From Planctopirus ephydatiae (GTDB lineage Bacteria; Planctomycetota; Planctomycetia; Planctomycetales; Planctomycetaceae): a stretch of 64,000 bases of DNA. Both the position numbers and the translations under genes were made by a program. This document shows, in pieces, positions 1 through 2,754 of the stretch. Where the stretch lies: assembly GCF_007752345.1 (NCBI RefSeq), contig NZ_CP036299.1, positions 620,001 to 684,000 on the forward strand, in the 5' to 3' direction. Each line of letters begins with the position of its first letter. Position 1 is the first letter of the stretch. A model generated the notes under the pieces. That model saw only the letters and a program-made list of their open reading frames with translations, searched no databases and was not told the origin of the DNA.

Positions 1-1228
1 TCAACGAGGCTGGGCAACTCAGTTGCTCCAGGTGGCTTCTCACCCCGGCGAGTTCGCACAGCACTCCACAGTGGCTGGTGTCGAACACCTGACCTGGCCT
101 GTCAACTCGACAGTCTTCTATCAGCTTGTCTCGGGTGCTGCCCAGCGTGGCCGCCTCAGTTCAGAAAACCGCCGGCTGAAGCGTCAGATTTCCAATCGAA
201 ATCTGCGCGATATGGTGGGCCACAGCCCTGCCATGCAGACCTTCCGCCAGCAGATTCAGCATGCCGCCGAGCAGGCCGGTTCAGTACTGATTGTGGCTGA
301 ACCTGGTGCCGGTGCAACGATTGCTGCTCAATCGATTCACGAAGCCAGTCGACGTGGCTCCCGCCCATTCATCCGCGTCGATTGCCATGTCCTTTCAGTC
401 GAAGCTCTCGAAGTGGAACTCTTTGGTGCACCCTGCCCACCACAAGAAGATGGTCGCCAGCACCTGCCGGGCCGTATCCATCAGGCCGAAGGCGGAACAA
501 TTTACCTTGACGGGATTGATAACCTCGCCATTCCTGCTCAGCGGCGATTGCTGAACCTCGTACGCCAGCAAAGACGCGAGCACCCGATCACTGGCGAACC
601 CATTCGGGCCGATGTGCGGATCATGGCCTCGACTTCCATCCGGTTGACACAACTCGTCAGCCGCAATCTCTTCCGGGCTGATCTGGCGGAAGCTCTGCAG
701 GATTATGTTGTCGAAGTTCCCGCCCTTCGTGAACGACCCGAAGACATCGCCACACTGGCTGAACACTTCCTGCACCGTGTTTCCGTTCGCGAAGGCCGTC
801 CCCCACGCATGCTGACTGTCGAAGCTATCGATCGATTGCGTCAGTGGAAATGGCCCGGCAACATCCGTGAACTCGAAAACGTGATTGACCGAGCCTGTTC
901 AATCGACTGCAGCCACAAACTCACAGCCGATATGATCGAGCCCTGGATTCAAAAGCCACTGGCCCAGGAAGAAGAAGATATCGTGCCCGGCCTGACTCTG
1001 GCCGAAATGGAACGCAAGCTCATCGAATCGACCTTCACCCGCTTTGAAGGAAATCGCGAAAAGACAGCTCGTGCCCTCCAGATCGGCATTCGCACACTCT
1101 CAGGCAAGCTCCGTGAATACGGCTACCCACCACGAGGGGGGCCCGGCTCAAACCGCATTGCAGCACCGGCCGAGACAGTCGAAACTGTCGAGCCGATGAT
1201 CAGCACGTTCGAAACCCGTGCTGCCTGA
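1..1228 (+). CDS. Sigma-54 activator-like (bEBP) transcription factor with degenerate ATPase core, 5' end missing
   Basis: The reading frame is open to the left window edge, so the N-terminus is cut off; residues here are counted from a TTG at 23. The first ~60 residues look like the end of a receiver domain plus linker. An AAA+ sigma-54-interaction domain follows (about 65-300) and a Fis-type helix-turn-helix ends the protein (about 325-370). The sensor II stretch WPGNIRELENVI is intact. The Walker A region reads AEPGAGAT (92-99), lacking the usual Lys. Walker B reads GGTIYLDGI, with Gly where Glu is expected, and no GAFTGA loop can be found. ATP-driven remodelling of sigma-54 polymerase is therefore doubtful. 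Lying just upstream of flgB, it may be a flagellar regulator acting by DNA binding alone; that role is inferred from position. Confidence 0.85.
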   Translation, partial: QRGWATQLLQVASHPGEFAQHSTVAGVEHLTWPVNSTVFYQLVSGAAQRGRLSSENRRLKRQISNRNLRDMVGHSPAMQTFRQQIQHAAEQAGSVLIVAEPGAGATIAAQSIHEASRRGSRPFIRVDCHVLSVEALEVELFGAPCPPQEDGRQHLPGRIHQAEGGTIYLDGIDNLAIPAQRRLLNLVRQQRREHPITGEPIRADVRIMASTSIRLTQLVSRNLFRADLAEALQDYVVEVPALRERPEDIATLAEHFLHRVSVREGRPPRMLTVEAIDRLRQWKWPGNIRELENVIDRACSIDCSHKLTADMIEPWIQKPLAQEEEDIVPGLTLAEMERKLIESTFTRFEGNREKTARALQIGIRTLSGKLREYGYPPRGGPGSNRIAAPAETVETVEPMISTFETRAA

Positions 1229-1241
1229 TACAGACTGCACC

Positions 1242-1285
1242 ATACGCCATACTCGTTCACCGGGTATGGCGTATTGGTGTTTTGA
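1242..1285 (+). terminator. Intrinsic terminator-like hairpin after the activator gene
   Basis: Perfect 11-bp inverted repeat, ATACGCCATAC (1242-1252) and GTATGGCGTAT (1264-1274), with an 11-nt loop, followed by a T-rich stretch. It begins 13 bases after the stop codon and separates the regulator from flgB. Confidence 0.7.
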
Positions 1286-1385: not shown

Positions 1386-1862
1386 ATGTTCAATCACCTG
1401 CTCACATCACAAACGTCAAACCTGCTCAAACAAACAGCCAAGTTTGCAGAACTCAGGCAGGATGTCCTCGCAGGAAACGTAGCCAATATCGATACTCCCG
1501 GCTATCGCATGCGCGATCTGCCTGTAGCCGACTTTCAGAATGCACTCAAAAAAGCTTATGAATCACAGACAGCACAGCCAGCCAGTCTGCATCCGCCTTT
1601 AGCAAATCCGGAAAATCCTTTAACAGAACTCATCTCACCTTCAGCCACATCAGTTCACACCACGAATTTCTTTCCCGAGTCTCTCTTCCAGGCCAGTGAA
1701 AAGAAAACCCAGCCGGGTATTACCTTTCAGGATGCAAACAATCGCAGCATCGAACAGCAGATGACACAGATCTCCAAAAACTCGATGTTGCAAAGTTTTG
1801 CGACCGAATTATTGAATCTGCAATATAACCAGCTTCAATCAGTCATCAGCGAACAGGTCTAA
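1386..1862 (+). CDS. flgB: Flagellar basal-body rod protein FlgB
   Basis: FlgB forms part of the proximal rod of the flagellar basal body in the periplasm. At 158 aa it is slightly longer than the family norm (about 130-140). The N-terminus contains the conserved rod-protein pattern LRQDVLAGNVANIDTPGYR (residues about 23-41), where ANxxTPGY is the signature of flagellar rod and hook proteins. The C-terminus is helical, as needed for coiled-coil packing in the rod. flgC starts six bases after the stop codon and fliE follows, the standard flgB-flgC-fliE order. The ATG at 1386 is preceded by a GAGGCACGTTCC stretch. Confidence 0.95.
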   Translation: MFNHLLTSQTSNLLKQTAKFAELRQDVLAGNVANIDTPGYRMRDLPVADFQNALKKAYESQTAQPASLHPPLANPENPLTELISPSATSVHTTNFFPESLFQASEKKTQPGITFQDANNRSIEQQMTQISKNSMLQSFATELLNLQYNQLQSVISEQV

Positions 1863-1868
1863 TCTATC

Positions 1869-2282
1869 ATGTTCCATACTCTTGATATCAGTACCAGCGG
1901 TTTGATTGCCCAGCGAACACGAATGGATACGATAGCTGGCAATATCGCTAACGTGAATACGACACAGAATGAAGAGGGGAAGATTGCTCCTTTTCAAAGA
2001 CGGCTCGTCATGATGCAGCCAACTTCTGTCGGCACGACCAGTCCCACTGGTAGCCAGGGGGTAGCATCAACGGTCGAGATTGATACCGTCTCGCCGCCGC
2101 GGATGGCGTATGAACCAGGGCATCCCCATGCCAATGCGGAGGGAAAAGTCCTTTATCCGAACATCAACGTCGTGACAGAATTCGTAAACGCCATGGAAGC
2201 CAGCCGCGCTTATGAAGCGAACGTCACGACGATGGAAGTTACCAAAGATATGATCCAGAACACTTTTCGGTTATTAGGTTAA
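1869..2282 (+). CDS. flgC: Flagellar basal-body rod protein FlgC
   Basis: Second rod protein of the cluster, 137 aa, the normal size for FlgC. The N-terminal half carries the rod/hook pattern with RMDTIAGNIANVNT (about residues 18-31). The C-terminal half has the conserved FVNAMEASRAYEANVTTMEVTKDMI-type helix (only partly quoted elsewhere in this table), which packs in the rod core. It follows flgB by six bases and is almost certainly co-transcribed with it. The rod assembles in the periplasm after export by the flagellar type III apparatus, so no cleavable signal peptide is expected and none is seen. Confidence 0.95.
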   Translation: MFHTLDISTSGLIAQRTRMDTIAGNIANVNTTQNEEGKIAPFQRRLVMMQPTSVGTTSPTGSQGVASTVEIDTVSPPRMAYEPGHPHANAEGKVLYPNINVVTEFVNAMEASRAYEANVTTMEVTKDMIQNTFRLLG

Positions 2283-2418: not shown

Positions 2419-2754
2419 ATGACAAACATGATCTCACAACCGGCGTTTTTACCTGCCCCCGCTCAGGCCGTCCCATTTACGGCCTGGTCGCAGCCACTGG
2501 CACTGCCAGAATCGGTTCCAAACACTCAACCCACAGTCTCTTTCGCGGATTTATTGAGCCAGTCGCTGGATGCCACCAACGGCCAGCAACAACAGATGCA
2601 TTCCCAGATTGCCGGAAGTTTGACAGGCTCTGACTTGTCGATGGTCGAAACCTTTTCAGCTGCTCGGGAAGCTGATCTGGCATTGAAACTGACTTTGCAG
2701 ATTCGCAATAAGCTGATCGAGGCCTATCGCGAAATCCAAAACTTGCAGCTTTAA
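2419..2754 (+). CDS. fliE: Flagellar hook-basal body complex protein FliE
   Basis: FliE links the MS ring to the proximal rod and is an early substrate of flagellar export. The 111-aa protein has the usual FliE layout: a poorly conserved N-terminus of about 50 residues rich in Ala, Pro and Gln, then a conserved helical C-terminus. Near the end, a stretch with DLSMVETFSAAREADLAL and a terminal IRNKLIEAYREI matches the family's helical rod-contacting segment. It sits 136 bases after flgC, separated by a nested palindrome, so it may be partly uncoupled from flgBC in expression. No further flagellar genes follow in this window. Confidence 0.92.
   Translation: MTNMISQPAFLPAPAQAVPFTAWSQPLALPESVPNTQPTVSFADLLSQSLDATNGQQQQMHSQIAGSLTGSDLSMVETFSAAREADLALKLTLQIRNKLIEAYREIQNLQL

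Follow-up and report, generated by a model that had tools for sequence, protein, structure and literature searches.

The window, by which we mean the whole 64,000-nucleotide stretch of Planctopirus ephydatiae DNA analysed here, opens within a gene for a degenerate regulator derived from bEBPs, and flgB, flgC and fliE come next on the same strand, as the initial annotation had noted (Table 1). The open frame in the window covers the final 408 codons of the regulator gene, whose start lies 257 bp upstream of the window. The full 494-residue product is laid out as a receiver-like domain (residues ~20-130), a long helix, an AAA+ domain (157-320), a lid (329-409) and a Fis-type helix-turn-helix (HTH, 418-459). 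Pfam matches to Sigma54_activat (109 bits, cut-off 20.2), AAA_lid_14 and HTH_8 (36.7 bits, cut-off 22) provide both the AAA+ homology and the Fis-type HTH of a bEBP, and a weak VpsR match, below the cut-off (E = 0.012), was found at the N-terminus. A receiver-AAA+-HTH layout next to flagellar genes is also that of FlbD-type regulators, with the receiver degenerate in this case. Upstream of the regulator is a FlgN-like gene (21.1 bits, under the Pfam cut-off of 30.5), and in the window's genome a DUF3467 protein (L009:6383-6760, + strand) is encoded immediately before the FlgN-like gene and the regulator.

Table 1. Features of the regulator gene and the adjoining flagellar genes; positions are those of the window unless a contig is named.
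Feature	Position	Strand	Basis or remark
Full regulator gene	G000:C1:619744-621228		494 aa
Degenerate bEBP-derived regulator, codons 87-494	2..1228	+	open frame, Pfam
End of receiver-like domain, without phosphorylation residues	2..136	+	acidic pair and phospho-Asp positions precede the window
Walker A position AEPGAGAT, Ala replaces Lys	296..319	+	alignment with ZraR
Place of the GAFTGA loop, reads APCPPQEDGRQH	428..463	+	alignment with ZraR
Walker B position YLDGI, Gly replaces catalytic Glu	503..517	+	alignment with ZraR
Arginine-finger stretch NLFRADLAEAL, Ala for second Arg	665..697	+	alignment
Sensor II WPGNIREL, retained	851..874	+	alignment
Fis-type HTH with IGIRTLSGKLREYG	995..1123	+	Pfam, alignment
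C-terminal PPRGGPGSN	1127..1153	+	motif comparison
Terminator-like hairpin in the regulator-flgB gap	1242..1274	+	weak: 1 found versus 0.8 expected
flgB	1386..1862	+	sequence match; name also by position beside flgC and fliE
flgC	1869..2282	+	sequence match
fliE	2419..2754	+	sequence match

The motifs of the protein were compared with those of ZraR (PDB 1ojl). At the Walker A place AEPGAGAT stands against GDSGTGKE in ZraR, so that the lysine is missing, and at the Walker B place YLDGI stands against FLDEI, with glycine for the glutamate. Opposite the GAFTGA loop of ZraR the protein reads APCPPQEDGRQH. This alignment confirms that the Walker A lysine, the Walker B glutamate and GAFTGA are absent and that sensor II and the Fis-type HTH are retained, all of which had been proposed from the sequence of the window. 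Beyond what had been proposed, the second arginine finger is gone as well (FRADLAEAL versus FRQDLYYRL), and the receiver-like N-terminus lacks the acidic pair, the phospho-Asp, the Thr and the Lys. From what is established for bEBPs, a protein missing the lysine, the glutamate, the second finger and GAFTGA would be expected to have neither ATPase activity nor contact with sigma-54.

The AAA+ fold itself is predicted to be intact. In an AlphaFold model of the regulator made with 35 family sequences (mean pLDDT 80.5, pTM 0.58), the AAA+ part matches the structures of PspF, NtrC1, FleQ and FlrC with an rmsd of 2.2-3.9 over 227-249 columns. The NtrX and VpsR structures match the model over most of the chain, with a poor overall superposition, and FleQ and VpsR are among the AAA+ and regulator matches in both sequence and structure. 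The protein thus resembles the GAFTGA-less regulators in having lost GAFTGA while retaining the HTH and, in the model, the fold.

We searched for orthologues of the regulator in the window's family, the Planctomycetaceae, and in its class, the Planctomycetia. Matches at E ≤ 1e-60 were present in 36 of 61 family genomes, and a scan of named genomes confirmed 118 loci, of which 80 were kept. The HTH profile, made from the last 60 residues of the protein, matches 110 of 248 class genomes, 64 of them in the window's family and 46 outside it; nine family genomes are listed without a match. Three of the 46 outside matches are other bEBPs (L198, L205 and L210, HTH about 50 bits) and were set aside, as was L219, a fragment without the AAA+ part. 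GAFTxA is found in all 42 class orthologues outside the family that have an AAA+ part and in 5 of the 80 named loci; it was seen in none of 15 family genomes checked individually and in none of 30 family loci in a further motif table. All 47 of these intact proteins (42 from the class and 5 named) also carry the lysine, the glutamate, the second finger and five receiver residues. Directly downstream of them lies flgB in 45 cases (41 of the 42 outside the family), the exceptions where it was not found being L192 and L117. The five intact named loci were counted without a family assignment, one being titled Planctomycetales, and all five group with the intact proteins in the tree described below.

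The degenerate set comprises 90 loci, 75 named and 15 from family genomes, with some genomes in both collections judging by like sequences (L237/L056, L230/L096 and L240/L086); 39 are non-redundant below 80% identity. The GAFTGA loop is present in 0 of the 90 versus 47 of 47 intact loci, a contrast that holds partly by definition for the named loci because the 75 are the 80 minus the five with GAFTxA. Of the degenerate loci, 13 keep the lysine, 3 the glutamate and 3 the second finger; in 72 the lysine, glutamate, second finger and GAFTxA are all missing, and not one of the 90 has all four together. The C-terminal motif PPRGGP[GD]S shows the opposite distribution, occurring in 90 of 90 degenerate versus 0 of 47 intact loci. 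A tree built without the motif columns groups the degenerate proteins into a single clade (SH-aLRT 98; quick search, no bootstrap) and implies five or more changes at the lysine position. We infer that GAFTGA, the glutamate and the finger were lost early and the lysine later and repeatedly. In six lineages (L227, L228, L229, L238, L239 and L256) the AAA+ part is far more eroded, the P-loop being unrecognisable or stretches missing; the HTH and PPRGGPGSN stay.

Selection was measured within the genus between L041, which is 100% identical to the window's protein, and L042, which is 95% identical. The overall dN/dS is 0.021 (dS 1.1), with values of 0.007 for the AAA+ part, 0.007 for the HTH, 0.043 for the receiver and 0.16 for the tail, and by this measure the regulator is under maintenance. 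Between genera, HTH conservation rises from 0.79 in intact to 0.89 in degenerate proteins, whereas it falls from 0.81 to 0.49 for the AAA+ part, from 0.63 to 0.56 for the lid and from 0.72 to 0.35 for the receiver. An AAA+ part that is kept within a genus and drifts between genera would suit a scaffold or a lineage-specific ligand, and because its dN/dS in the genus is so low and the lysine persists in some loci, nucleotide or another ligand may still matter for it.

The motif losses go beyond chance or sequencing error, since the same losses recur across the family and the dN/dS is low. The initial annotation had suggested comparing the altered residues among orthologues, and had reasoned that intact orthologues at the same locus would make this a recent decay. 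Such orthologues do exist. However, they occur in other lineages, and the family genomes that we examined showed no intact copy; on these grounds, and with a dN/dS of this size, we rejected a recent decay.

The promoter of the flagellar operon differs between the two groups as well. We scored sigma-54 -24/-12 sites as at least 9 of 11 positions with GG and GC required, and found one between the regulator and flgB in 40 of 46 intact versus 0 of 21 degenerate loci (Fisher p = 2e-12, ignoring relatedness). In 28 of the 40 the site lies no more than 56 bp from the FlgB match. A fixed 300 bp before flgB gave the same counts, with shuffles at 3% and 1%. The sigma-54 promoter that a bEBP would have at its target is therefore missing from flgB in the degenerate loci. 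Further, no sigma-54 site of score 10 or more was found in the window or in the fliG cluster, the operon heads gave a sigma-54 match of at most 9 of 11, and no sigma-70-like promoter was found before flgB in the window. Sigma-54 itself has not been lost, since all 20 genomes tested, among them that of the window, carry rpoN, and a scan of eight other bEBP loci of the window's genome showed GAFT[GS]A in five.

A palindrome recurs between the regulator and flgB in the intact loci. The dyad CGGC-N7-GCCG occurs in 33 of 41 non-redundant intact regions, whereas in five shuffles no dyad reached more than 11, and CGGCA-N5-TGCCG within two mismatches occurs in 45 of 46. At least two such palindromes are present in 39 of the 46, often 22-23 bp apart, with the consensus ATCGGCAAANTTTGCCGAT, and we read this element as the putative enhancer of the intact lineage. 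At a score of 13 the palindrome precedes flgB in 37 of 46 intact versus 0 of 21 degenerate loci. A dyad search of the degenerate regions yielded mainly what appears to be the coding end of the regulator and was dropped.

In the degenerate lineage the palindrome reappears elsewhere. At the head of an operon that has become larger, before a TPR gene (Pfam TPR_16), it is found in 6 of 13 loci with the regulator, leaving 7 without it, versus 0 of 12 loci lacking the regulator (p = 0.015); this comparison was posed after five of its six positives had been seen, and it excludes six loci with and two without the regulator that had too little upstream sequence. Upstream of the regulator gene itself the palindrome occurs in 31 of 68 loci away from flgB and in 2 of 21 adjoining flgB. 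Many of those away from flgB sit at about -345 with diverged flanks, although the loci inspected had been picked for score. In the window's genome the matches near the regulator are imperfect and lie inside the FlgN-like gene. Sixteen loci, of which 14 are not next to flgB, encode a small YHS-domain protein (e.g. L084:249-533, + strand) upstream of the regulator.

Genome-wide, the window's genome has 22 palindromes versus 1 control match. Across the family, more palindromes than control matches were counted in 50 of 55 regulator-plus versus 10 of 22 regulator-minus genomes (two-sided p = 3e-5, uncorrected for relatedness, like the two values that follow). The 22 were reached after dropping G016 and G020, in which the contig ends at flgB or flgC; when G019, G055 and G057 are also dropped (n = 19) p is 1e-4, and with only the genomes that have no HTH-profile match (n = 9) it is 2e-4. 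Regulator-minus status comes from sequence searches, for some genomes also from the HTH profile or the surroundings of flgB, and G022 illustrates that an eroded regulator copy can escape the whole-protein search. Four genomes of the intact lineage gave palindrome versus control counts of 11 vs 4, 6 vs 5, 7 vs 4 and 10 vs 14. The excess could belong to another regulator. We rejected a role of the palindrome as a transcription terminator, as a T-run follows 0 of 22 R/Y-form sites in the window's genome, judged by eye. G016 has 64 palindrome versus 6 control matches and no regulator was found in it; because its contig ends at flgC, the regulator may be absent from the assembly only.

Candidate targets were examined in the window's genome, where the exact form of the palindrome occurs at 35 sites (control 8), 19 of them outside open frames of more than 150 codons, as are 15 of the 22 R/Y-form palindromes. 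One lies 104 bp before fliN, one 217 bp before a second FliMN_C gene and another upstream of flgE (FlgE_D2), and weaker matches (15.1 and 15.5) fall in the first bases of a frame that holds FliK. Others precede genes for an MFS transporter, an ECF sigma factor and OprB porin, an efflux protein, a DtxR-type repressor, Gln/Glu-tRNA synthetase and a trypsin/PDZ protease, and there are more. The fliN palindrome is shared in the genus only, being present in 2 of 13 regulator-plus versus 1 of 12 regulator-minus genomes (not significant; 18 of 66 stretches, nearly all of the third gene group, were dropped for having no FliMN match with two seeds), and fliN was rejected as a conserved target beyond the genus. 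For the second FliMN_C gene the counts are 4 of 12 versus 1 of 9 (not significant), the sister genus G045 included. If these palindromes are targets, the target set would be fluid.

The regulator also persists apart from the flagellum. By NCBIfam cut-offs, FliG is present in 30 and FlgC in 45 of 61 family genomes, FlgC being of two kinds. The 36 family genomes that carry the regulator divide into 15 with FliG over the cut-off, 14 in which the second kind is the sole FlgC and is encoded megabases from the regulator or on a different contig, and 7 without an above-cut-off FlgC. Two of those seven, G034 and G010, have FliG matches of 187 and 191 bits, under the cut-off of 226.7, and G027, which is 99% complete, keeps the regulator with no FlgC or FliG match. 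No flgB was seen downstream in 69 of the 90 degenerate loci, 61 of which hold at least 1.5 kb of sequence there. In the reverse case, several genomes with a canonical flagellum have the TPR gene, the FlgN-like gene and flgB without an intervening regulator. Some members of the family may have an additional flagellar system, to judge by the second kind of FlgC; G004, G042, G048 and others have it (E about 1e-41 or better) together with weak FliG matches, apart from the regulator. A palindrome of score 17.5 lies about 150 bp upstream of one second-kind flgB (G048, L259) and was not found at two others inspected (L258, L260). One 759-residue frame (L112:4743-7022, - strand) joins FliF and FliG domains (YscJ_FliF, FliG_M and FliG_C), and FliG matches also fall within frames of 581-775 aa in G056, G055, G009, G006 and G030.

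Taken together, the motif losses, the single clade, the selection, the loss of the promoter and the loss and reappearance of the palindrome, as established by sequence comparison, lead us to favor, with reasonable though far from full confidence, a single old conversion of an FlbD-like sigma-54 activator into a DNA-binding regulator independent of sigma-54. The ancestor would have been a phosphorylatable, ATP-driven, FlbD-like activator of flgB-flgC-fliE. Near the base of the family it would once have lost its receiver chemistry, its ATPase residues and its sigma-54 contact, and the flgB operon its sigma-54 promoter. In the folded protein that remained, the Fis-type HTH has most probably kept its recognition of the former enhancer palindrome, and the regulator would act without sigma-54 on sigma-70-type promoters. 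In some lineages these would be the promoters of the regulator gene or of the operon head, and in the window's genus those of flgE, fliN and other genes. Binding of the palindrome and the lack of ATP hydrolysis are both what the sequences lead us to infer. As to its mode of action, we lean slightly toward a protein that acts mainly as a repressor or autoregulator, rather than as a sigma-70 co-activator, which seems possible but doubtful. FlbD both activates and represses through its sites, so losing the activating half could leave a repressor. Tentatively, and on somewhat less than even chances, we extend this to a pseudo-enzyme regulator throughout the family that is free of phosphorylation and ATP, reads the ancestral palindrome, has been rewired from one operon to scattered and fast-changing sites, and is kept where the ancestral flagellum has been lost.

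The initial annotation had called the protein a possibly repurposed, non-ATPase flagellar regulator. The first part stands as a reading of the clade-wide motif loss, the strong purifying selection and the missing sigma-54 promoter before flgB, tempered by the 13 loci that keep the lysine. The flagellar part holds by descent and for the exact palindromes before flgE, fliN and another C-ring-type gene, and is weakened by the 69 of 90 degenerate loci showing no flgB downstream and by G027, which has the regulator but no FlgC or FliG match.

The main rival to such a conversion, which we think unlikely, is a sigma-70 co-activator of the VpsR or Rhodobacter NtrC kind, in which the pseudo-AAA+ part would bind nucleotide or c-di-GMP, oligomerise and contact sigma-70 polymerase at the palindromes. 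An AAA+ fold that is predicted intact and strongly selected within the genus would fit this, as would the VpsR matches in structure and sequence and the regulation of sigma-70 promoters by the GAFTGA-less NtrC and VpsR described in excerpts of PMC10274813. However, 77 of 90 loci have lost the Walker A lysine, the AAA+ part is poorly conserved in the family and lacks stretches in some members, and the window has no sigma-70-like match before flgB. We consider it very unlikely that the protein is a hetero-oligomer partner that occupies the former enhancer and influences another, intact bEBP in the cell: the genome does have at least five bEBP loci with GAFT[GS]A, plus rpoN, but the sigma-54 site before flgB is absent in all 21 degenerate loci, none of score 10 or more was found in the window or the fliG cluster, and the operon heads gave at most 9 of 11. 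It is highly improbable that the regulator is a functionless relic carried with the flagellar operon. Although several family members have no copy of it between flgB and the FlgN-like gene and its AAA+ part is eroded in some, the low dN/dS, the near-invariant HTH across genera, the breadth of the HTH-profile matches in the family (64 genomes with, 9 listed without) and the retention of the gene at unlinked loci, many with an upstream palindrome at a steady distance, all argue otherwise. An unusual working ATPase that still activates sigma-54 through other residues has the 13 retained lysines in its favor but is just as improbable, given that no degenerate locus keeps the four elements together, most keep none, and no sigma-54 site is left before flgB.

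Known regulators offer partial parallels. FlbD of Caulobacter crescentus, which according to the excerpted texts uses one kind of site both to activate late flagellar genes and to repress early ones (PMC3930126, PMC3096577), shares the receiver, the AAA+ part, the Fis-type HTH and the association with flagellar genes. However, FlbD reportedly keeps GAFTGA (PMC10274813) and works with sigma-54, whereas the window's regulator has lost the contact and ATPase residues. FlbD is better matched by the intact orthologues of planctomycetes, a likeness drawn from its description rather than its sequence. The NtrC proteins of Rhodobacter capsulatus and Caulobacter are GAFTGA-less bEBPs acting on sigma-70 promoters, the former needing ATP binding and the latter its Walker residues, as excerpted from PMC10274813. 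In contrast, the window's regulator has lost the lysine, the glutamate, the finger and the receiver residues besides GAFTGA. VpsR of Vibrio cholerae is likewise a GAFTGA-less, bEBP-like regulator, with a structure that matches our predicted model; it reportedly does not need ATP (PMC10274813, PMC3162934) and is described as binding c-di-GMP (PMC10714721). FleQ of Pseudomonas aeruginosa is a flagellar bEBP and among the best AAA+ matches in sequence and fold, but its structures are listed with an ATP analogue whereas the window's regulator is without the nucleotide residues.

A 2025 survey of sigma-54 regulons that included Planctomycetia kept only GAFTGA-bearing proteins as activators, according to the portion available of PMC12316311, so the degenerate regulators would be missing from it. 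A 2011 survey, in its excerpted part, flags GAFTGA-less proteins mistaken for activators, VpsR included (PMC3162934), and among the papers listed by our literature search none was recognised as describing the degenerate clade. GAFTGA-less bEBPs that act without sigma-54 are known singly. Here the states before and after share a gene position in sister lineages, and the protein, the promoter and the enhancer have all changed, which makes it testable how an operon leaves sigma-54 control and what role a regulator takes on when left with a DNA-binding end and an inert AAA+ scaffold. The loss of one type of gene control could be tested in a genus tractable in the laboratory, gene deletion having been published for Planctopirus limnophila (PMC5394234, in excerpt).

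Finally, we also identified a second degenerate bEBP in the window's genome (L010:1529-2917, - strand; G000:C1:223528-224916). It has a PAS domain, keeps a Walker A motif (GENGTGKE), is without GAFTGA, reads TILLKSID at the Walker B place and has a Fis-type HTH.
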